A DNA stretch of 64,000 bases. Origin: Verrucomicrobiota bacterium. Its GTDB lineage: Bacteria; Verrucomicrobiota; Verrucomicrobiia; Limisphaerales; UBA8199. The position numbers were made by a program, and so were the translations under genes. The stretch lies in the NCBI GenBank assembly GCA_012517205.1, contig JAAYVL010000153.1, positions 1 to 64,000 on the forward strand, written 5' to 3'. Below the pieces are notes generated by a model. That model was not told the origin of the DNA. It saw only the letters and a list, made by a program, of their open reading frames with translations, and ran no database searches. This document shows, one piece after another, positions 1-11,717 of the stretch (its first letter is position 1; each line of letters starts with the position of its first letter).

Positions 1-243
1 CTGCCCCATCCAGGGCCGGCTGGGAACGTGCAGCGCCGCGGCGTTCCAGCGCTCGCGCTGCGCTTCGCTGAGCTTGAGGCCCCACTCCCGCGAGGAGATC
101 CCGAAATACGACCGTGCGGCCGCTTTGCGGTTAGAAGGCCGGTCCCGGGGAACGGTGCGCCGCCGGGCGCACACGCCGAAGGGGGATTGGTAATAGGTTT
201 CCGCGCCCAGGCTGCCCGTGCGCGGAGCGGATAGTATTTTCAT
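1..243 (-). CDS. Conserved hypothetical protein, N-terminal part (runs off the window)
   Basis: This gene is absent from the ORF track because it has no stop in the window. Reading the reverse strand from the ATG at 243 gives 81 uninterrupted codons starting MKILSAPRTGSLGAETYYQS. An AAGGAA ribosome-binding site lies about 8 bases upstream of the ATG. The visible part is basic and ends with a stretch like LKLSEAQRERWNAAA, a layout I associate with small verrucomicrobial proteins of unknown function that may be phage-like or surface related. No catalytic motif is visible. It is transcribed away from the sigma54 regulator gene. The frame is well supported; the function is unknown. Confidence 0.6.
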   Translation of the reverse strand, partial: MKILSAPRTGSLGAETYYQSPFGVCARRRTVPRDRPSNRKAAARSYFGISSREWGLKLSEAQRERWNAAALHVPSRPWMGQ

Positions 244-571
244 AACGTAGTTCCTTTTTGTTGTTTTTTTATTGTCGTTCTGTCATCGCCTCGGAGGGCG
301 ACTCGGCTTCCTGCCATTCCTTGGGCTGGAAGTCCCCGCCGCCGCCACCCCGAGCCCACGCGGGAAGGCTGGCGGGTAGGGTGTCTTTGCGCAAGGGCGA
401 ATTTGGGAGGAATTGGCGATGGCAGGCCGGTGCAGGGCACCGTGTAAGGGCACGCGGCCTGCAAGGGGCGGCATCATCGCTTTTAGCGCCTTAGCGAATG
501 TTGGCTGCAACACCAACCTGGTTGTTGAGTGGGGCTGGCGAGGGGCGGTCTCTGGATGTACACTAGCCGCG
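244..571. other. Intergenic region between divergent genes
   Basis: The region separates the leftward partial gene from the rightward sigma54 regulator. The only notable signal is a GGGAGG box at 405-410 placed well for an ATG at 419, which would add 51 residues to the regulator. Those residues are low in helix-forming character and look unlike a PAS domain, so I treat this part as non-coding. No tRNA and no confident promoter was seen. Confidence 0.4.
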
Positions 572-1888
572 ATGCTGGATAACTTGTTGGATTATATTCC
601 CGATGGCGTTTTCACGGTGGACGCAGAGTGGCGCGTGACGTTTTTTAATCGCGCCGCGGAGCAGATTACCGGGATTCGGCGCGCCGAGGCGGTGGGGCGC
701 CGGTGCTGTGATGTTTTTCGGGCGAGCATTTGCGAGAGTGCGTGCGCGTTGAAGCAGACGCTTTCCACGCATCGGCCGGTGGTGAACAAGGTGGTGTATA
801 TCATTGACGCGCGCGGGCAAAAGATACCGATCAGCATTTCGACGGCGGCGATGAAGGATGGACGCGGGCGCGTGGTGGGCGGAGTGGAGAGTTTCCGGGA
901 CCTGCGGGTGGTGGAGACGCTGCACCGGGAATTACAGCAGCAGAATTCCTTCGCCGACATCATCGGGCGCAGCGCGGCCATGCAACAGGTTTTTGAGCTG
1001 CTGCCCGAGATTGCGGAGAGCGACAGTGCGGTGCTGATCGAAGGAGCCAGCGGGACGGGCAAAGAGTTGTTTGCGCGCGCTTTGCACAACCTGTCGCGGC
1101 GGCGGTCGAAGCGGTTTGTGGCGCTTAATTGCGGCGCGCTGCCGGATAACTTGCTGGAATCGGAGCTGTTTGGCTACAAGGCGGGAGCATTCACGGATGC
1201 GCGGCGCGACAAGCCGGGGCGTTTTGCGCTGGCCGAGGGCGGCACGATTTTTCTGGACGAGATTGGGGATATTTCCCCGGCGATGCAGGCGCGATTGCTG
1301 CGGGTGTTGCAGGAACGGGTTTATGAGCCGCTGGGCGGAGTGGAGCCCGTGAAGGCCGATGTGCGTTTTATTACGGCCACCAACAAGAACCTGGGCCAGC
1401 TCGTGGAGCGGGGGCGGTTTCGCGAGGATTTATTCTACCGCATTCATGTCATCCGGCTGGAGCTGCCGAGCCTGCGAGACCGGCGGGAGGATATTCCGCT
1501 TTTAATTGATCACTTCATCGCGCGGTTCAACCGGCTCAAGGGCAAGGATATCGGGGGTGTTTCCGACGCGGTGCTGGCGCGGTTGATGGAACACGACTTT
1601 CCGGGGAACGTGCGGGAACTGGAGAACATTATTGAGCACGCCTTTGTGTTGTGCCGGGGTGGCGTTATTGAAATGAAGCACCTCCCTCCGCCGCTGCGGG
1701 GCAGCGCGTTGGGGGAAGCGCTCCGGTTGGGCCGGGCGATGACTCTGAAATCCATGGAAAAGTTGCTGATTCAGGATGCCCTGCGCCGGAATCGGGGGAA
1801 CCACCAAAAGGCGGCTCAGGAGCTGGGCATTAATCCCAGCACGCTTTTCCGGAAAGTCAAAGCGTTGAGGCTGGCAAAGCGAGGTTGA
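572..1888 (+). CDS. Sigma54-dependent Fis-family activator with an N-terminal PAS domain
   Basis: An enhancer-binding protein of 438 residues that would activate sigma54 promoters by ATP hydrolysis. A PAS-like sensor covers about residues 1-110 and carries Cys 45, 46, 54 and 58, a spacing that could hold a metal or Fe-S centre (inference). The AAA+ domain follows at about 130-365, with Walker A GASGTGKE (158-165), the sigma54-contact loop as GAFTDA (205-210) rather than GAFTGA, and Walker B TIFLDE (225-230). GNVRELEN and a Fis-type helix-turn-helix close the protein. I chose the ATG at 572 because PAS homology begins there; TTG 413 or ATG 419 would add an unconvincing leader. Its gene sits directly upstream of an ORP-like cluster, where a sigma54 regulator is also found in Desulfovibrio, so it is probably the cluster's activator. 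Confidence 0.85.
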   Translation: MLDNLLDYIPDGVFTVDAEWRVTFFNRAAEQITGIRRAEAVGRRCCDVFRASICESACALKQTLSTHRPVVNKVVYIIDARGQKIPISISTAAMKDGRGRVVGGVESFRDLRVVETLHRELQQQNSFADIIGRSAAMQQVFELLPEIAESDSAVLIEGASGTGKELFARALHNLSRRRSKRFVALNCGALPDNLLESELFGYKAGAFTDARRDKPGRFALAEGGTIFLDEIGDISPAMQARLLRVLQERVYEPLGGVEPVKADVRFITATNKNLGQLVERGRFREDLFYRIHVIRLELPSLRDRREDIPLLIDHFIARFNRLKGKDIGGVSDAVLARLMEHDFPGNVRELENIIEHAFVLCRGGVIEMKHLPPPLRGSALGEALRLGRAMTLKSMEKLLIQDALRRNRGNHQKAAQELGINPSTLFRKVKALRLAKRG

Positions 1889-1891
1889 GCA

Positions 1892-1907
1892 TGGCACACT
1901 TAAAGCA
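1892..1907 (+). promoter_or_regulatory. Candidate sigma54 (-24/-12) promoter of the ORP-like cluster
   Basis: The sequence TGGCACACTTAAAGCA matches the sigma54 layout TGGCAC-N5-TTGC: the -24 hexamer is perfect and the invariant GG and GC dinucleotides are at the exact required spacing. Only the two bases before GC (AA instead of TT) depart from consensus. The predicted start, about 12 bases after the GC, falls near 1918, just ahead of the ATG at 1925. It lies just after the stop codon of a sigma54 activator, which strengthens the call. Confidence 0.6.
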
Positions 1908-1924
1908 AATGGTCTGGTCATAAA

Positions 1925-2245
1925 ATGAAACTGGGCATTATTCTTTCACAGACAGAGCCAGAAACGGTCTTTAACGCACTGCGGCTGGCGAACTATAGTT
2001 TGCAGCAGGGGGACAGGGTGAAGATATTCCTAATGGGCAAGGGAGTGGAATTGGAGCAGATTCGCGATCCGAAATTTGATGTTCAGGGACAAGCGCGGGC
2101 GGTTCTGGACGCGGGCGGGCAGTTCCTGGCCTGTGGCAGTTGCCTGAAATTGAGGGAATCGGCAGGGTCGGAAGTGTGTCCGCTTTCAACGTTGCAGGAC
2201 CTGTATGAACTTGTTCGGGATTCGGATCGGCTGGTGACCTTTTGA
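1925..2245 (+). CDS. DsrE/DsrF-like small sulfur-relay-type protein
   Basis: A 106-residue cytoplasmic protein of the DsrE/F-like fold, whose relatives carry or relay sulfur or respond to redox state. The N-terminus LGIILSQTEPETVFNALRLA is the usual first strand and helix. Further on are a CGSC motif (Cys70 and Cys73) and Cys85 in SEVCPLSTLQDLYELV, a pattern typical of the uncharacterised DsrE group in anaerobes. It is the first gene after the candidate sigma54 promoter, with almost no leader and no clear Shine-Dalgarno sequence. It overlaps or abuts the next gene, suggesting translational coupling. The family call is solid; the substrate is unknown. Confidence 0.75.
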   Translation: MKLGIILSQTEPETVFNALRLANYSLQQGDRVKIFLMGKGVELEQIRDPKFDVQGQARAVLDAGGQFLACGSCLKLRESAGSEVCPLSTLQDLYELVRDSDRLVTF

Positions 2246-2247
2246 GC

Positions 2248-2919
2248 ATGGGGAGGGGCCTGAAAACGGAAAACCGGCCGCAGCGCCCGGCGAAACGCGC
2301 GGCAGACCCCGAGATGGCGGCCAACCGCCGGCTGCTGCTGAAACGCGAGGCCCGGCTGCGGCGGTTTGGCTATGACTCGCGGGTGGGAATTCAGTTTGTG
2401 CTGGCGCAGGCACTGCCGCTGGGAGGGAAGGTGCTCGAGGTGGGAACGGGCAAGGGGCGTTTCCTGATCCGGTTGGCGCGCCATGTCAAGGCCGTGGTTA
2501 GTGTGGATGTCTCAGCCGAGGAACAACGATGCGCCCGCCTCAACGCAAGGAATGCGGGCGTGGAAAGGAAGATTCAATTCGTGCTGCGGGATGCGCGCCG
2601 GCTGCCGTGGGCGAACGAAACTTTTGATGCGGCGGTCACCATGAACGCCATGCATCACATCGCGAATTTCGGGCAGGTGCTGCGGGAAATGCTGCGGGTG
2701 GTGAAGCCCGGCGGCAAGATTGTGTTGGCGGATTTCAGCCCGCGGGGGTTTCAGATTATCGCGCGGGCGCATCGGGATGAGGGGAGGACGCATCCGCGCG
2801 AGTTCTATGACTTTCGGGCGCTGGCGCAGACGCTGCGAAAACGCGGATTGGCCACGCGGCTGCGCAAAGGGGCAAACCAGGAGGTGCTGATCGGTCGGCT
2901 CCCGGCGGCTGCGGCGTAA
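2248..2919 (+). CDS. Class I SAM-dependent methyltransferase
   Basis: A 223-residue methyltransferase. Motif I is KVLEVGTGKGRFL, followed by the acidic strand VVSVDVS, a D-A-R-R-L-P-W loop, and AVTMNAMHHI and GGKIVLADFSPRGF as later core motifs. This is the UbiE/methyltransferase-11 type; the acceptor cannot be read from sequence. The ATG at 2248 starts just after the DsrE stop codon, and a TTG at 2242 overlapping that stop is an alternative. Methyltransferases recur in ORP-like clusters and a second one lies at 7799, so the cluster carries two. There is no membrane segment, so it should be cytoplasmic. Confidence 0.75.
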   Translation: MGRGLKTENRPQRPAKRAADPEMAANRRLLLKREARLRRFGYDSRVGIQFVLAQALPLGGKVLEVGTGKGRFLIRLARHVKAVVSVDVSAEEQRCARLNARNAGVERKIQFVLRDARRLPWANETFDAAVTMNAMHHIANFGQVLREMLRVVKPGGKIVLADFSPRGFQIIARAHRDEGRTHPREFYDFRALAQTLRKRGLATRLRKGANQEVLIGRLPAAAA

Positions 2920-2921
2920 GT

Positions 2922-4847
2922 ATGGTGAAACGAGGGCCAGCCCCAATCAGGGGACATGCTACGCGACGTGACTTTCTCCGGCGGGCGGCGGGCGCAACTT
3001 CCTGTCTGCTGATGCAAGGATTGGGCGTCGTGGGAGGCGCCGGCCAGACCCGCGAGCGGCGAACGAATATGCCAGTTCCGGTTTCCGGAGCGGCAGTGAG
3101 TGGCCGACCGGGAATAGTTCCAGGCGCTCCGGTCACGGTGATTACACAGCCGGTTTCCACTGATGCCAATCCGCGCGCGCGGGCCTGGGGCTACCTCACG
3201 GAGGTCCTCAGCCGCGCCGGCCTGTTTTACGAGACCCTCCCAGCGAGCCAGGTGGAATCACTGTTTCGGCGCGCGAAAAGCGTCGTGATCCTTGCCGGCG
3301 ATTTGCCGCTGACGCAACCGCAGCGAGCGGCGCTTGCTCAGTGGGTCAAGGAGGGCGGGGCGCTCATCGGCCTGGGAGGAGCCTCCGGTTTGGAGGAAGT
3401 ATTTGGGGTGGCCGGGGGAATCCCGGTGGCGGAGGGGTGGATAAAGGTCACGGCTGGAGAACACCCCTTAACGGCGGGGTTGCGCAGTTCTCTGCATGTC
3501 TTTGGCGGGCGCGCACTGAAGAAGAGTTCGGCAACCGTTCTGGCAGAACTGCAAACGGGCAACGGCATTTCCAAAGGGAGCGCCATACTGGAGAACCGCT
3601 TCGGCACGGGCCGAACCGTTTTGTTGGGCCCGGATTTGCTCTTCTCGATTGTTCACATCCAGCAGGGGCTGAGGGTGCTGCAAGATGGCAGGCCCGCGCC
3701 GGATGATTCGGCTCCGGTGAACGAGGGGCTGCTCAAGACCGAAGACGGCCTCGTATTGGATTGGCAGCGGGACCGATCCCCGGTGCCGCCGGATGGCGGA
3801 CCGCTTTTCCTGGAGCCGATCAGCGATGAGTTGCGCGAACTCATTCTGCGAAGCGTTTTTCACCTGGCCCGACAGCAGGCGATCCTGCTGCCCGTGTTGT
3901 GGTATTGGCCGCGCTCACTCAAAGCGGTAGCGCAGCTATCACATGACTCGGATGGGAATGACCCGCAAAAGGCGGCGGCTTTGCTGGAAGTGATGAATCG
4001 CAGCCGGCTGAAGTCCACTTGGTGCATCCTCTACCCGGGAGGCTATCCGGTTGAATTCTACCGCACGCTCGTGGAACAAGATTTTGAAGTCGCGTTGCAC
4101 TATGATGCCATGACGGGCGGGGAGCATACGGCATGGTCCCGAGACAACTTTCTGTTCCAACGGCGCTGGTTGATGAAGGAAGCCGGGCTGGAGCAGATTA
4201 CTACCAACAAGAACCATTACCTGCGCTGGGAGGGGCGCCTGGATTTCCTGCGCTGGTGTGAATCGGCGGGCATAGCTTCTGATCAATCGCGCGGACCGAG
4301 TAAAAAGGGCACCATTGGCTTTCCGTTGGGAGGTTCGCAGCCCTACTTTCCACTGGATGATGAAGCCGATTCGCCGCGGTTCCTCAACGTGCTCGAGGTT
4401 AACCTTCTGACGCAGGACTTGGTCATTACCTGTCCGCCGGAGTACGGCCAACCCTTGCTCGATTCCGCCGCGCGGCACCATGGCGTGGCGCATTTTCTTT
4501 TTCATCCCGCGCACATACGCAAGCCGGGGGTGGCGGATGCCCTTGCGGGCTTGGTGGACTACGGCCGGAGACAGGGATTGGAATGGTGGACCAATCGGCA
4601 GATTTGGCAGTGGGAAATGGCGCGCCGGAGCGTGGAGGCCCGCTTCCATTCCGGGAACGCCATCACGCTGCGGGCAGCCGCCAGTCTTCCGCAAGCTACG
4701 CTGTTGCTGTTGCGCTCACACCCCGCGAGCTGCGCTCTTGCTTTGAACGGGCGCCCGGCGGACCCTAAGCCTTGGGACTTGTATGGGTTTGAATTTGACG
4801 CGCTCACCGTGGATATTGGGGACGAGATTCGGGTGCAAACAATCTGA
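2922..4847 (+). CDS. TAT-exported protein with a deacetylase-like domain
   Basis: A 641-residue protein with a twin-arginine signal (TRRDFLRRAAG at residues 14-24, then a short hydrophobic run), so probably exported folded. Residues about 60-300 resemble a glutamine-amidotransferase-like fold (VVILAGDLPLTQPQRAALAQ, then GGALIGLGG). The C-terminal half has polysaccharide-deacetylase-like features: SHDSDGND as a first metal motif, VALHYDA, FLFHPAHIRKPG and a WW-rich end. It starts two bases after the methyltransferase stop. An exported carbohydrate-type enzyme is unexpected in an ORP-like cluster; it may simply share the transcript. The reaction is not assigned. Confidence 0.6.
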   Translation: MVKRGPAPIRGHATRRDFLRRAAGATSCLLMQGLGVVGGAGQTRERRTNMPVPVSGAAVSGRPGIVPGAPVTVITQPVSTDANPRARAWGYLTEVLSRAGLFYETLPASQVESLFRRAKSVVILAGDLPLTQPQRAALAQWVKEGGALIGLGGASGLEEVFGVAGGIPVAEGWIKVTAGEHPLTAGLRSSLHVFGGRALKKSSATVLAELQTGNGISKGSAILENRFGTGRTVLLGPDLLFSIVHIQQGLRVLQDGRPAPDDSAPVNEGLLKTEDGLVLDWQRDRSPVPPDGGPLFLEPISDELRELILRSVFHLARQQAILLPVLWYWPRSLKAVAQLSHDSDGNDPQKAAALLEVMNRSRLKSTWCILYPGGYPVEFYRTLVEQDFEVALHYDAMTGGEHTAWSRDNFLFQRRWLMKEAGLEQITTNKNHYLRWEGRLDFLRWCESAGIASDQSRGPSKKGTIGFPLGGSQPYFPLDDEADSPRFLNVLEVNLLTQDLVITCPPEYGQPLLDSAARHHGVAHFLFHPAHIRKPGVADALAGLVDYGRRQGLEWWTNRQIWQWEMARRSVEARFHSGNAITLRAAASLPQATLLLLRSHPASCALALNGRPADPKPWDLYGFEFDALTVDIGDEIRVQTI

Positions 4848-4876: not shown

Positions 4877-5176
4877 ATGCTCAGCGACCACGACCAAAAG
4901 ATTCTGCCCCGCTGCCCCCGCCTTGGCCACGAAATCACCTTCGGTTATTGCCGCCGGGAAACAGGCGGCCGGCCCTGCCGGTTGATCTTAAACTGCTGGT
5001 GGGAACAATTTGATGTGCGCGGTTTCCTGCAAGCGCATTTGCCCGAGGACGAGATGGCGCAAGTCGAGCAAGCGCATGCCGCCGCACCCCCAGCCAAGAT
5101 TGTCAGCCTGATGGAGATAATTGACCAGGCGGCGCAGAGAATATCGGGCGAAAAGCCCGGCGGGGCTTCCGGTTAG
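4877..5176 (+). CDS. Small four-cysteine protein of unknown function
   Basis: A 99-residue protein whose N-terminal half holds Cys13, Cys25, Cys34 and Cys40 in the pattern CPRLGHEITFGYCR, then PC, then LNCWW, followed by FDVRGFL. The pattern fits a metal or Fe-S knuckle. Similar short CPRLG...YCR...PC...CW proteins are, from memory, found in delta-proteobacterial anaerobes. The C-terminal half is helical and charged with no cysteine. It sits 29 bases after the TAT protein, in the same direction, in the ORP-like cluster. I do not assign a function. Confidence 0.6.
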   Translation: MLSDHDQKILPRCPRLGHEITFGYCRRETGGRPCRLILNCWWEQFDVRGFLQAHLPEDEMAQVEQAHAAAPPAKIVSLMEIIDQAAQRISGEKPGGASG

Positions 5177-5314
5177 CATGGCAAAATGCAACGGGCGGCG
5201 CAGGTAGCTATTGCAGTCTGCGCTGCTTCCGGATCATTGCCCCAGCGGGTCGCCATGCCCAAAAGCCTGATTATAAGGGAGATTTAGTATAAAACGACCG
5301 GAGGGTGGCTTGGC

Positions 5315-5761
5315 ATGAATCCGGCATTAGGGAGGGTCGTGCTGATAGCGGTTCCCAACTGTCAGGGTCGCGTGTCGCCCGTATTCGACGTGGCGGCGCG
5401 ACTGGTATTGATTCGCTTAAAAGGCGAGGCCGAAGTCGAGCGCAAGGAGATAGTGCTCTTTGAAAAGCAGCCGGAAGGGATGCTTCACAGCCTGCAAGAA
5501 TGTGGGGTTAAGCTGGTGATCTGCGGGGCCATTTCGCGGGAGTTGCAGATGAAGCTGGAAAAGGCGGGTATTCGAGTCGTGCCGCAGATTTGTGGAGAAT
5601 TGGAGACGGTCATTACGGCTTTCCGACGGGGCACGCTGGGGCAGCGTGAATTTACGATGCCAGGGTGCTGCGGCCGACAGTGGGGCGCCGGCCGATGGCG
5701 GGGCCGATGTCGGCGGGGGCCTCATGGCAAGGCTCGGGGAAATTATGCTGCCTGGACTTAA
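5315..5761 (+). CDS. NifX/NifB-family (ORP-like) protein 1
   Basis: A 148-residue member of the dinitrogenase Fe-Mo cofactor biosynthesis domain family (NifX, C-terminal NifB, MTH1175, orange protein ORP). Residues 8-110 carry the fold: VLIAVPNCQGRVSPVFDVAA, LVICGAISRELQMKLEKAGI and a proline-glycine turn before the end. MPGCCGR followed by an Arg/Gly-rich tail is typical of this branch. A GGAGGG box lies 9 bases before the ATG. A 138-base gap separates it from the preceding gene, so a second promoter is possible, but I found no good -24/-12 there. No nitrogenase gene is nearby, so a role in a nif pathway is unlikely. Confidence 0.8.
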   Translation: MNPALGRVVLIAVPNCQGRVSPVFDVAARLVLIRLKGEAEVERKEIVLFEKQPEGMLHSLQECGVKLVICGAISRELQMKLEKAGIRVVPQICGELETVITAFRRGTLGQREFTMPGCCGRQWGAGRWRGRCRRGPHGKARGNYAAWT

Positions 5762-5806: not shown

Positions 5807-6169
5807 ATGAAAATAGCAATCCCTCTGACGGGAGGCCGATTGTCGGCTCACTTTGGGCACTGTGAACAGTTTGCCTTGATTGAGGCTGACCTTGCCTCCA
5901 AACAAATCCTGACCCAGACCCGGGTGGCCCCGCCGCCGCACGAACCGGGTTTACTGCCCCGCTGGCTCTATCTCCAAGGGGTCCAGACGGTTATTGCCGG
6001 GGGCATGGGAAGGCGCGCGTTGGATTTATTTGCCCAAAACGGCATCGCGGTACACGCCGGCGCGATAGATGATGCGCCGGAGAAATTGGCGCAGGCGTTT
6101 TTAAACGGGACGCTGAGCGGCGGGACTCCGACATGCGGCCATGATCACAAGCACACGCATTGCTCATGA
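5807..6169 (+). CDS. NifX/NifB-family (ORP-like) protein 2 with Cys/His-rich tail
   Basis: A 120-residue single-domain member of the same family: MKIAIPLTGGRLSAHFGHCE at the start, VQTVIAGGMGRRALDLF in the middle. The AHFGHCE segment is the family's usual His/Cys site, and the tail CGHDHKHTHC adds two Cys and four His, an obvious potential metal site. This branch is the one closest to orange protein and to the NifX-type companions of Mrp ATPases. Its stop codon overlaps the next start (ATGA), implying coupled translation and perhaps a hetero-oligomer. Metal identity cannot be read from sequence. Confidence 0.8.
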   Translation: MKIAIPLTGGRLSAHFGHCEQFALIEADLASKQILTQTRVAPPPHEPGLLPRWLYLQGVQTVIAGGMGRRALDLFAQNGIAVHAGAIDDAPEKLAQAFLNGTLSGGTPTCGHDHKHTHCS

Positions 6170-6525
6170 AAGTCGCAATTACTACTCAGGGACCGGATTC
6201 CGCTTCGCCGGTGGACCCTCGGTTTGGCCGGGCGCGGTTCTTTCGCATCGTGGATACCGAGAGCGGACAGCAGACGACGGTGGACAATGCAGAAGGGATG
6301 AACGCGGTTCAGGGGGCTGGCACGCAGGCCGTTCAGGCACTGGCCCGTCTGGGGGTTCAAGCGGTCCTTACTGGACATGTTGGCCCAAAGGCCTGGAACG
6401 CGCTGCAAGCGGCCAAAATCCAAATGTATTCCGTCACCAGCGGCTCGGCTGAAGCGGCTTGCCAGGCCTTTCTCGCGGGCCAGCTTTCGATGCTGACGCC
6501 AGCGGAAGCGCCGGGACACGCTTGA
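6166..6525 (+). CDS. NifX/NifB-family (ORP-like) protein 3
   Basis: A 119-residue protein starting MKVAITTQGPDSASPVDPRF, with GRARFFRIVD, NAVQGAGTQAVQALARLGVQ and VLTGHVGPKAWNALQAA, the MTH1175-type version of the fold. I chose the ATG at 6166, which overlaps the previous stop as ATGA, over the TTG at 6160 used in the track. It has no Cys/His tail, unlike its neighbour. Three consecutive paralogues of different branches suggest division of labour, as in the sulfate-reducer ORP cluster, which also encodes more than one such protein. Confidence 0.8.
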   Translation: MKVAITTQGPDSASPVDPRFGRARFFRIVDTESGQQTTVDNAEGMNAVQGAGTQAVQALARLGVQAVLTGHVGPKAWNALQAAKIQMYSVTSGSAEAACQAFLAGQLSMLTPAEAPGHA

Positions 6526-6607: not shown

Positions 6608-6826
6608 ATGACACCAATGGGAGATGGGACCGGCCCGTTCGGACAAGGGCCAGTGGGTAAGAGGATGGGGCCTTGCGGCGGAGGAAGGCGTTGCGGCAGA
6701 GGCCAAGGCAGTCAAGGCCGGGGTCGGGGTGGCGGTCGAGGTTTCGGCCGCCGCCGTTGGCGCAGCGGGCCGCAAGGAAAAAACTTCAGGGCGGCAAACG
6801 CTCCAACCGAAAAGCAGTCTGGTTGA
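6608..6826 (+). CDS. Small Gly/Arg-rich DUF5320-like protein
   Basis: A 72-residue protein starting MTPMGDGTGPFGQGPVGKR, the hallmark of short DUF5320-type proteins that accompany NifX-family genes in anaerobes. The rest is a run of Gly, Arg and Gln with two cysteines (PCGGG, RRCGRG). AAAGGA lies about 7 bases before the ATG, a clear ribosome-binding site. The track also lists a longer ORF over the same bases in another frame; that N-terminus is a shadow and belongs to the ATPase frame only from 6849 on. Function unknown; the composition suggests disorder or nucleic-acid/protein contacts. Confidence 0.75.
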   Translation: MTPMGDGTGPFGQGPVGKRMGPCGGGRRCGRGQGSQGRGRGGGRGFGRRRWRSGPQGKNFRAANAPTEKQSG

Positions 6827-6848
6827 GAATCAAGACGCTCTCTTGGCA

Positions 6849-7802
6849 GTGAGGCTTGCGATAGCCAGCGGCAAGGGTGGAACGGGCAAGACCACCATTG
6901 CCACGAATTTGGCGATGCGACTGGCGCACCACGGCCAGGAGGTGGTGTATGTGGATTGTGATGTCGAGGCACCCAATGGCCATCTCTTTTTGAAGCCGGA
7001 TGAGGTCCGGGAATACCCGGTCAACCGGCTCGTTCCCCAGGTGAGCCAGGAACGATGCCAGCATTGTGGCGATTGTGGCCGAATTTGCCGTTACAATGCC
7101 ATCTTATGCCTGGCTGAGCGAACGCTGATTTATGACGAGTTGTGCCACAGTTGCGGCGGCTGCGTTCGGGTGTGCCCCACGCGGGCTATCACTGAGATAC
7201 CGCACTTTGTGGGGGTAGTTCGAATCGGCATTGCGGGCAAAGTTCAATTTGTGTCCGGCACCCTCAAGGTATCCGAGGCCAGCAGCCCGCCGGTTATTCG
7301 TGCCGCCTTACAAGCTATGCCGCCGTCGGACTGGGTGATCCTGGACGCTCCCCCCGGCGCGGCTTGTTCGGTGGTAGAAACGCTTCGGGACTGCGATTAT
7401 GTATTATTAGTAAGTGAGCCAACGCCCTTCGGATTACACGACCTTCAGATAGCGTTGGAACTGGCAAAAACATTGGCGGTGCCATGTGGGGTAGTCGTCA
7501 ATCGGGCTTATTCCTCCATGGCCGAGCTCCGGGAATTATGTGGACAGGCGCAGGTGCCTGTTCTGGGGGAGATTCCTGATGATTTGGCCATTGCCCGCGC
7601 ATATTCCCGGGGCCAACGGATCATTGACGTGGTGCCGGGATTGCATCGGACTTTTGACCACTTGCTGCTTCGGTTGCTGGAAGAGCTTCAACCGAATGTA
7701 CTGCCGTTTCGGACGCGGCAGGATTTAGAACAAGCTATCTACGCAAACGATCGAATGGAGGCGACAAATCTAAACGAACCGGGCCGGCTGATGGCGACAT
7801 GA
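6849..7802 (+). CDS. MinD-type P-loop ATPase with inserted 2x[4Fe-4S] ferredoxin domain (copy 1)
   Basis: A 317-residue Mrp/MinD-superfamily ATPase. The deviant Walker A SGKGGTGKTT is at residues 7-16, and VDCDVEAPN and WVILDAPPGAAC supply the other nucleotide-binding motifs. About residues 55-120 insert a bacterial ferredoxin with CQHCGDCGRIC and CHSCGGCVRVCP, enough for two [4Fe-4S] clusters. I start it at GTG 6849, giving VRLAIASGKGG; the track's start at 6624 lies inside the previous gene. Its end overlaps the next start by four bases. Such paired ATPases are core members of the ORP complex in Desulfovibrio. Confidence 0.85.
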   Translation: MRLAIASGKGGTGKTTIATNLAMRLAHHGQEVVYVDCDVEAPNGHLFLKPDEVREYPVNRLVPQVSQERCQHCGDCGRICRYNAILCLAERTLIYDELCHSCGGCVRVCPTRAITEIPHFVGVVRIGIAGKVQFVSGTLKVSEASSPPVIRAALQAMPPSDWVILDAPPGAACSVVETLRDCDYVLLVSEPTPFGLHDLQIALELAKTLAVPCGVVVNRAYSSMAELRELCGQAQVPVLGEIPDDLAIARAYSRGQRIIDVVPGLHRTFDHLLLRLLEELQPNVLPFRTRQDLEQAIYANDRMEATNLNEPGRLMAT

Positions 7803-8449
7803 AAGACGAAGCTTCCAAGAACATGCAGAGCGTGTCCGGAACAATGCGGAAATATTGGAAGTCCTGTGAATCGGAGTTTTGGCAGAACGTCTTTCGCGTT
7901 GAAACAGATTATTTATTGAAGCATTTAAAGGGCTGCCAAACCGTCTTAAGTGTTGGCTGCGGCCCGGCCGTTATCGAAGCTGCGCTGGGCAAGCATGGCT
8001 ACCAAGTTACGGGGGTAGATATCGAGCCAGGAGCTTTAAGGGAGGCTTCAGGCGCGGTGAAAATGGTGGTCGCCCGGGCAGAAGATTTGCCCTTTCCCGC
8101 GGCCGCCTTCGAGGCGGTAATTTTTGTAACCTCCCTGCAATTTATCGAAGATTATCGAGCAGCCGTGGTGCAGGCGGCGCGGGTATTGCGCGAGAGCGGG
8201 CAGCTTATCGTGATGCTGCTTAATCCCGCATCGGCGTTTTTCCAACGGAAACTCTGCCAACCGCACTCGTACGTGCACTGGATTCGGCATACAGACCTCG
8301 AGGAAATCCAATCGGTCATCAGCGAGCAGTTCGAGGCGCAGACGGAGTATTTCCTCGGCATAGACGGCGCGACGTTGTTTGAGACTCGGGATCCTGCAGG
8401 AGCAGCTCTATTCGTCATTCGAGGCACAAGGAAGGCCGCATCCCTATGA
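7799..8449 (+). CDS. Class I SAM-dependent methyltransferase (between the two ATPases)
   Basis: A 216-residue methyltransferase-11-type protein. Motif I is VLSVGCGPAVIEAALG, the acidic strand is VTGVDIEPG, then ARAEDLPFPAAAFEAVIFV and RVLRESGQLIVMLLNP. It overlaps both neighbouring ATPase genes by four bases (ATGA), so it is almost certainly co-translated with them and part of the same functional unit. The acceptor is unknown. It is distinct from the methyltransferase at 2248. Confidence 0.78.
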   Translation: MKDEASKNMQSVSGTMRKYWKSCESEFWQNVFRVETDYLLKHLKGCQTVLSVGCGPAVIEAALGKHGYQVTGVDIEPGALREASGAVKMVVARAEDLPFPAAAFEAVIFVTSLQFIEDYRAAVVQAARVLRESGQLIVMLLNPASAFFQRKLCQPHSYVHWIRHTDLEEIQSVISEQFEAQTEYFLGIDGATLFETRDPAGAALFVIRGTRKAASL

Positions 8450-9375
8450 CGGAACTGGTTGTTCTCAGCGGCAAAGGCGGCACCGGCAAAACCAGCGTGA
8501 CGGCGTCGCTAGCTGCTTTGGCCGAAGCACCAGTATTAGCAGATTGCGACGTGGATGCCTCCAATCTGCCACTGGTTCTGGCTCCACGCATCCAGCACCA
8601 CGGGACATTCTCCAGCGGACTACGAGCTCGTATTCAATCCAGTCGCTGCTCCGTCTGCGGCCAGTGCGAAGAGTTATGCCGATTTAATGCCATTTCCTAC
8701 TATGAATCCGCCAACGACGATGAAGCCGGCGCATTCCGGGTGGATCCCATTGCATGCGAAGGCTGTGGTGTTTGCGCTCACTTCTGTCCAGAAGGCGCCT
8801 TGGAAATGATTCCAAGCGACGGCGGTGAATGGTTTTTGTCGGAAACCCGCTTGGGACCATTGGTCCACGCGCGCCTGCGGCCCGGACAGGGGAATTCTGG
8901 CAAATTAGCAGCGCTCGTTCGTGAAAAAGCACGCGAAACGGCACGCGCCAATGGTCGCGAACTGGTCCTGATTGATGGCCCGCCAGGCATTGGTTGCCCG
9001 GTCATCGCCAGCATGACAGGAGCTACGAACGTGTTGGTGGTTACGGAACCGACGGTCGCCGGCAAGTACGACCTGGAACGAATCCTTGCGTTGATCCGGC
9101 ACTTCAACCTCCCTGTTTCGGTATGCATAAACAAGTATGATTTGAATTCGGCGATGGTGGCACAAATCGAGCGCTACACTGCGGAACTCGGGGCAACCAC
9201 TGTCGGGCGGATTCCCTATGATCCTGCCGTGACTGCAGCCCAACGTCGTGGCATCTCGGTTGTGGAACTCAACCAGGGTCAGGCGGCGCCTGCTATCGTT
9301 GAATTATGGAAGACTCTATCCGAAAAATGCCTCAACCTGACGCCTGGTCACTATCAGCCGATTTCGGCCGGCTAA
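8446..9375 (+). CDS. MinD-type P-loop ATPase with inserted 2x[4Fe-4S] ferredoxin domain (copy 2)
   Basis: A 309-residue paralogue of the ATPase at 6849: LSGKGGTGKTSVTASLAAL near the start, ADCDVDASNLP, and LIDGPPGIGCPV. The ferredoxin insert has CSVCGQCEELCRFNAI and CEGCGVCAHFCPEGAL, with a slightly longer linker than in copy 1. Two such ATPases, each with its own clusters, match the arrangement known for ORP clusters, where they are thought to act as a heteromeric pair. It is the last gene of the run; a 219-base gap follows. Confidence 0.85.
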   Translation: MTELVVLSGKGGTGKTSVTASLAALAEAPVLADCDVDASNLPLVLAPRIQHHGTFSSGLRARIQSSRCSVCGQCEELCRFNAISYYESANDDEAGAFRVDPIACEGCGVCAHFCPEGALEMIPSDGGEWFLSETRLGPLVHARLRPGQGNSGKLAALVREKARETARANGRELVLIDGPPGIGCPVIASMTGATNVLVVTEPTVAGKYDLERILALIRHFNLPVSVCINKYDLNSAMVAQIERYTAELGATTVGRIPYDPAVTAAQRRGISVVELNQGQAAPAIVELWKTLSEKCLNLTPGHYQPISAG

Positions 9376-10844: not shown

Positions 10845-11717
10845 ATGACTCTACCAACTGCACTGTTACTCGGCTACTGCCTGCTCGCCCTGCTGGCAGC
10901 CTTAATTGGCGGCATGATGCCCTCTTTGATCAAGCTGACGCATACCCGCCTTCAATTCGCCGTCAGTTTGGTTGCTGGTTTGATGTTGGGATTGTCGGTG
11001 CTTGGCCTTCTTCCGCATGCCACGCATGAGTTGGGGTCAGTTCACCAAAGCACTTCCTGGCTGCTGGCGGGATTCCTGATCATGTTTCTCTTGCAGCGAT
11101 TTGCACCCTTTCACCATCATGATGTCCCTGAAGGAAGTCCCCCCGAGCCTTGTGGGCATACTCATTCGCTGGCCGAGAGATCGGCGCGCGGCCTCAGTTG
11201 GATTGGGTTGGCGTTCGGATTATCTCTCCACTCGGTGTTTGATGGATTGGCGATGGCCGCGGCAGTGACCGCTGACGCGCAGACACCGCGCGGTGGAGCC
11301 TTGGGGCTTGGCACGGCTTTAGCCGTCATTCTACACAAACCTTTCGGGGCCCTGGCGATTACGACGCTAATGACTGCCAGCGGGGCAGGACGCGCTTTAA
11401 GAAACTGGGTTAACTTGGCATTCGCTTGTGTGACTCCGTTGGGAGCGATGCTTTTTTTCCTTGGGGCTGGGCCGTGGGCGGTGGTGCATCCCTCCTGGCT
11501 TGGTTGTGCCCTGGCTTTTTGTGCCGGAACCTTTCTCTGCATTGCCTGCGCCGACTTGCTGCCGGAATTGCAGTTTCATACGCATGATCGCTTTAAACTT
11601 TCCCTGGCATTAATCATCGGCTTAGGTATCGCTATTTTCATAGGGCAGTTGAAACTTCCAGGCCACGGCCACAGTTCAAACCACCCCAAGACAGAACACT
11701 TGCATCCTCCCAGATGA
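10845..11717 (+). CDS. ZIP-family divalent metal transporter
   Basis: A 290-residue inner-membrane protein with about eight hydrophobic segments. The signature metal site of transmembrane helix 4 is GLSLHSVFDGLAMAA (His129, Asp133), and helix 5 has AVILHKPFGAL. In canonical ZIPs the latter reads HKxPE; here the glutamate is replaced (HKPFG), so one half of the binuclear metal site may be altered. The loop between helices 3 and 4 holds HHH and HTH metal-handling stretches, as usual. It is translationally overlapped by the next gene. Zinc is the likeliest substrate but is not proven. Confidence 0.78.
   Translation: MTLPTALLLGYCLLALLAALIGGMMPSLIKLTHTRLQFAVSLVAGLMLGLSVLGLLPHATHELGSVHQSTSWLLAGFLIMFLLQRFAPFHHHDVPEGSPPEPCGHTHSLAERSARGLSWIGLAFGLSLHSVFDGLAMAAAVTADAQTPRGGALGLGTALAVILHKPFGALAITTLMTASGAGRALRNWVNLAFACVTPLGAMLFFLGAGPWAVVHPSWLGCALAFCAGTFLCIACADLLPELQFHTHDRFKLSLALIIGLGIAIFIGQLKLPGHGHSSNHPKTEHLHPPR

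Follow-up and report, generated by a model that had tools for sequence, protein, structure and literature searches.

A probably secondary −24/−12-like element behind a sigma54 activator gene and the probable promoter of an ORP-type cluster in a Verrucomicrobiota genome

Which −24/−12 element serves the ORP-type gene cluster that follows a sigma54 activator gene is the question raised by this locus. An earlier note placed the promoter at position 1892, between the activator gene and the cluster, and described it as near-perfect. The stretch analysed here (the window) is positions 1–64,000 of contig C91 in a 3.6-Mb genome of 181 contigs, in which rpoN is found. The features discussed are collected in Table 1.

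Table 1. Positions of the activator gene, the candidate regulatory sites, and the cluster genes in the window
Feature	Positions	Strand	Basis or remark
Sigma54 activator (EBP), PAS-AAA+-Fis HTH, 438 aa, GAFTDA loop	572–1888	+	Pfam matches and orthologs
−24/−12-like site, possible weak accessory promoter	1892–1906	+	Predicted +1 at 1918
DsrE/DsrF-like gene dsrE	1925–2245	+	PF02635
SAM-dependent methyltransferase	2251–2919	+	Profile match; directly follows the activator gene in relative L057
641-aa ORF, no Pfam match	2922–4847	+	Between the activator and the ORP genes
99-aa conserved ORF	4877–5176	+	Frequently located just before the activator palindrome in relatives (L114, L119, L122); also follows the activator in L120
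Activator-type palindrome TGGCAAAATGCAA, putative UAS	5179–5191		Best in the whole 64-kb window, 18.0 bits
−24/−12 site TGGCATGAATCCGGC, TGGCAT-GAATC-CGGC, main candidate ORP promoter	5311–5325	+	Predicted +1 at ~5337
NifX/ORP-domain gene, likely GTG start at 5339	5339–5761	+	PF02579; predicted leader ~2 nt
NifX/ORP-domain gene	5807–6169	+	PF02579; MrpORP ORP domain, 120 bits
NifX/ORP-domain gene	6160–6525	+	PF02579; MrpORP comparison
MinD/Mrp-type ATPase with inserted 4Fe-4S ferredoxin domain	6624–7802	+	Domain match, MrpORP comparison
Second MinD/Mrp-type ATPase with 4Fe-4S domain	8446–9375	+	Domain match, MrpORP comparison

The activator has full-length orthologs with 57–91% identity throughout the order and beyond, and the GAFTDA loop is kept in most of them. 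GAFTDA is also the form given for DVU2106, which activates the Desulfovibrio vulgaris orp operons (PMC4641369). The features by which we recognized an ORP regulon are found here: a GAFTDA-bearing sigma54 activator that has AAA+ and Fis domains, adjoining genes for ORP-domain proteins and MinD/Mrp Fe-S ATPases (the composition of Orp is taken from PMC6345978), and a palindrome upstream of a −24/−12 promoter (5179–5191, and in relatives). The GAFTDA loop and the adjoining NifX/ORP-domain and MinD/Mrp-Fer4 ATPase genes support the assignment of the protein, as judged from sequence, to the DVU2106 kind.

For 13 of 59 orthologs, the 260 bp that follow the activator gene contain a sigma54 site matching at 9/10 or more positions, compared with 0.65 in shuffles; none was found on the opposite strand of these regions. 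Divergent sigma54 sites lie upstream of the activator at 14 of 58 loci, whereas none was found upstream of the activator in the window. A divergent gene for a thioesterase, which we take from its sequence to be PaaI-like, is placed under such a site in L056, L057, L058, L062, L064, L066, L068, L071, and L077; the leaders predicted for these divergent genes of the relatives are 2–10 nt. In L056 and L057, TAGACT is located ~7 nt before the activator ATG. This hexamer is a possible −10 element and, as such, would give the activator a very short leader, too.

The site at 1892 (TGGCACACTTAAAGC) reads TGGCAC-ACTTA-AAGC. Its geometry is as the earlier note had described: the GG (1893–1894) and GC (1905–1906) dinucleotides stand at the exact GG-N10-GC spacing, the site lies directly behind the activator gene (3 bp after the ORF stop at 1888, stop+3), and transcription starting at the normal distance, at 1918, would begin 7 nt ahead of the dsrE ATG at 1925. 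The term near-perfect does not hold, since the −24 half matches at 6/6 positions but the −12 half is AAGC instead of TTGC (2/4), giving 8/10 overall.

The comparison with chance, which the earlier note had regarded as a check, gives a divided answer. Sites with two or fewer mismatches from TGGCACN5TTGC number 74 in the window, compared with 90.7 in shuffles. With a sigma54 scoring matrix built from 42 sites belonging to this regulon, site 1892 scores 11.8 bits (the weakest training site, 12.0 bits) and ranks third among 127,972 positions in the window, while ~4.75 sites as good are found per 64 kb in shuffles. The top sigma54-like site of the window, TGGCACGGCTTTAGC at 11309–11323, scores 15.4 bits but is located within an ORF (10845–11717). 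TGGCACN5AAGC has two copies in the genome versus eight for the reversed control pattern. Genome-wide, TGGCACN5TTGC with one mismatch gives 268 matches versus 212 for the reversed control, which carries little information on single sites; its three exact copies were uninformative on inspection, one of them lying in overlapping open frames. On the other hand, the probability of finding a site like 1892 by chance in the 36-bp gap between the activator gene and dsrE (~30 start positions) is ~0.001, a post hoc estimate.

A mini-ORF (MAHLKQMVWS and a stop codon, 1891–1923) overlaps the −24/−12-like site, carries GAGG 6 nt before its ATG, and stops 1 nt ahead of the dsrE ATG. If site 1892 matched the motif by chance only, transcription of dsrE and the genes after it would depend on read-through from the promoter that serves the activator gene, and the mini-ORF could couple translation to dsrE on such transcripts. 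The shuffle-like motif frequency and the shortness of the gap agree with this reading. We consider it unlikely, in view of the low positional probability and the conservation of the element in two sister genomes.

In the two nearest relatives, L056 (G007) and L057 (G001), the same element is found at exactly stop+3 (TGGCACGGTCCAAGC and TGGCACGGTTCAAGC, respectively). Between these two, 18 of the 19 bp of the element are identical, compared with 51% identity at 4-fold degenerate sites. The window shares 14 and 15 of the 19 bp with them, and TGGCAC and AAGCA do not differ among the three genomes, a retention arguing that site 1892 is not a mere product of chance. The gene after the element differs in each genome (dsrE in the window, the 4877-type ORF in L056, and the methyltransferase gene in L057). 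These observations suggest that the element is probably under constraint in the small clade of the window and its two nearest relatives, where it may act as a weak promoter or be the remnant of a binding site.

Instead of a promoter, the element at stop+3 may be an activator-binding site that has degenerated, or another dyad. The region in L056 forms a perfect 6-bp dyad (GCTTGG-CACGGT-CCAAGC), TGGCACGGTCCAA is palindrome-like with one mismatch, true palindromes are located 2–5 bp after the activator stop in L080 and L095, and the stop+3 element is the best match to the palindrome matrix within window positions 1–2100. However, its score (6.5 bits) is low, random stretches of 160 bp giving similar values (90% quantile, 7.6), and the dyad is broken in the window, yet TGGCAC and AAGC are kept. 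A binding site or dyad at this position is thus rather improbable.

The reading closest to the earlier note takes site 1892 as a working sigma54 promoter with a start at 1918, driving the whole cluster from dsrE to the ORP genes as one operon. The exact −24 half, the correct spacing, the position behind the activator gene, and the conservation at stop+3 in both nearest relatives are consistent with such a role. The score is close to those of the weakest real sites, and GAGC serves as the −12 half in L080 and L081. In L119 and L125, too, a sigma54 site immediately follows the activator and precedes other genes, and short leaders are normal in this regulon, as described later. Against the one-operon reading stand the AAGC sequence of the −12 half and the chance-level frequency of the motif. 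No activator-type palindrome was found 60–220 bp upstream of site 1892 (best score 3.8, within noise), and the same region upstream of the stop+3 element in L056 and L057 also lacks one. Since several strong divergent sigma54 sites in relatives have no near palindrome either, this absence counts against site 1892 without excluding it. In addition, dsrE orthologs elsewhere do not have such a promoter, and the conserved promoter at 5311 is separate. Overall, transcription of the whole cluster from 1892 appears doubtful.

As an anchor for phylogenetic footprinting, dsrE was rejected; its orthologs occur in several phyla with neither an adjoining activator nor a good −24/−12 site upstream. Relatives of DsrE are found in tandem in G010 (two copies, L047 9729–10395), and one is located inside the same activator-ORP neighbourhood in G233 (L122 9072–9389).

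A palindrome, TKGCA-N3-TGCMA, recurs beside the activator orthologs. The sequences flanking the activator genes contain 16 strict copies (TTGCA-N3-TGCAA), compared with 0.1 in shuffles and 0–1 for five control palindromes, and none was found inside the activator genes. In the 3.6-Mb genome, the strict pattern has two occurrences, one at 5179 and the other inside a gene that is presumably murF, as named from its translated ORF; being coding sequence, the latter was not accepted as a regulatory site. Several relatives (L121, L131, and L132) have weak palindromes only.

The palindrome at 5179 is followed at a distance of 132 bp (88–138 bp in most relatives) by the −24/−12 site at 5311, which sits directly before the first of the three NifX/ORP-domain genes. 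Taken alone, this site is weak (7/10, 10.1 bits), since chance would give ~16 sites of this quality per 64 kb. However, most relatives have sites of 8–10/10 at the orthologous position, mostly with the palindrome ahead of them, which supports site 5311 despite its weakness. The conserved promoter of the ORP genes is most likely the 5179/5311 pair and not 1892, where the earlier note had placed it. Site 1892 would drive only the lineage-specific genes between the activator gene and the 5311 promoter (dsrE, the methyltransferase gene, and others). A weak accessory promoter at 1892 is conceivable because the site is retained in the two nearest relatives, though we lean somewhat against it.

The distance between the promoter and the first start codon should be noted. 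A start of the NifX/ORP gene was searched for 6–69 nt behind each promoter; in each order-level genome that was found, it lies 12–15 nt behind the best site. In L100, the single phylum-level match, the distance is 36 nt. Across 19 genomes including the window, the distance from the C of the −12 half to the start is 13 nt in 13 genomes, 12 nt in four, and 15 nt in two, and the start codon is GTG in 16 and ATG in three. No Shine-Dalgarno-like motif precedes the start in 16 of the 19, and six of the 19 genomes have no alternative in-frame start upstream. The mean identity of the 13-nt spacers is 32%; a fixed length combined with a nearly random sequence points to selection on spacing. Sigma54-dependent transcription usually starts 12 nt after the C of the −12 half, to within a base or two, so that the predicted leaders are 1–4 nt and the transcripts would be essentially leaderless. 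In the window, the annotated start, ATG 5315, was rejected because it lies inside the −24/−12 element, while GTG 5339 coincides with the first residue of the ORP domain (the ORP domain of MrpORP aligns from residue 1).

The leader was thus rightly called very short in the earlier note, but it is not unusual here: short leaders are typical of the regulon, and the 7 nt predicted from site 1892 would fall within its range. Among the larger ORFs of the window, 8 of 51 have a Shine-Dalgarno-like motif at the first start, compared with 4 of 51 control stretches, and this scarcity makes leader-independent translation plausible. A search for leaderless sigma54 genes in general gave no obvious excess, with matches at 12–14 nt from the −12 half to ATG in 135 of 196 genomes versus 131 at 24–26 nt. 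All leaderless mRNAs of Sinorhizobium meliloti start with AUG, and leaderless mRNAs with a GTG start are disfavoured in well-studied bacteria. On balance, we slightly favour a sigma54/enhancer operon with its promoter fixed ~13 nt from the start codon across the order and producing a leaderless mRNA that mostly starts with GTG, in bacteria in which Shine-Dalgarno sequences are scarce; the transcription switch would then also set translation. Within partial coverage of the literature, no paper whose title or abstract concerns a leaderless sigma54/RpoN arrangement was found.

From these observations, we consider the following scheme likely. The activator encoded at 572–1888 would be a regulator dedicated to the ORP-type iron-sulfur cluster and would most likely bind the palindrome at 5179–5191. 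By looping of ~130 bp, it would drive sigma54-RNA polymerase at 5311–5325, and transcription would start ~2 nt ahead of GTG 5339 of the first NifX/ORP gene to give an essentially leaderless mRNA. Site 1892 would be a second, weaker, lineage-specific −24/−12-like element, which may make the dsrE-methyltransferase genes co-inducible. Comparison of sequences establishes the activator family, the palindrome, the promoter motif, and the constant spacing, while binding, looping, the start site, translation without a leader, and any activity of site 1892 are inferred.

The D. vulgaris orp1 and orp2 operons are controlled by the one-component sigma54 activator DVU2106 (Fievet 2011, 2014), which has palindromic sites at −88 and −131 (PMC3897727). 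The system in the window resembles them in its one-component, GAFTDA-bearing sigma54 activator, in the presence of ORP and ATPase genes, and in palindromic activator sites ~90–130 bp upstream of −24/−12, the last likeness being one of palindromic form and distance. The divergent arrangement is also found in many relatives. In the window, however, the activator and ORP genes are co-directional with extra genes between them, and no divergent promoter was found. Moreover, Shine-Dalgarno sequences are mentioned for the orp operons (Fig. S1 legend, PMC3897727), whereas the leader predicted here is 1–4 nt. In Deinococcus-Thermus, −10 regions adjacent to open reading frames lead to leaderless mRNA (PMC12340547); unlike those −10-type promoters, the promoter here is of the −24/−12 sigma54 type, and the starts are mostly GTG. 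The likeness to Desulfovibrio drawn in the earlier note therefore stands for the kind of activator and for sigma54 control of an ORP-type cluster, but not for 1892 as the promoter; the DVU2106-like system had been recognized, and a secondary or decayed element was probably picked.

The analysis carries the sigma54 regulation of ORP-type clusters, as established in Desulfovibrio, over to a distant order represented mainly by fragmented assemblies. It supplies a defined motif for activator binding and a probable location of the promoter, and further points to conserved, nearly leaderless sigma54 transcripts, as predicted from the fixed spacing. If this is true, one transcription switch would also set translation by the leaderless route.
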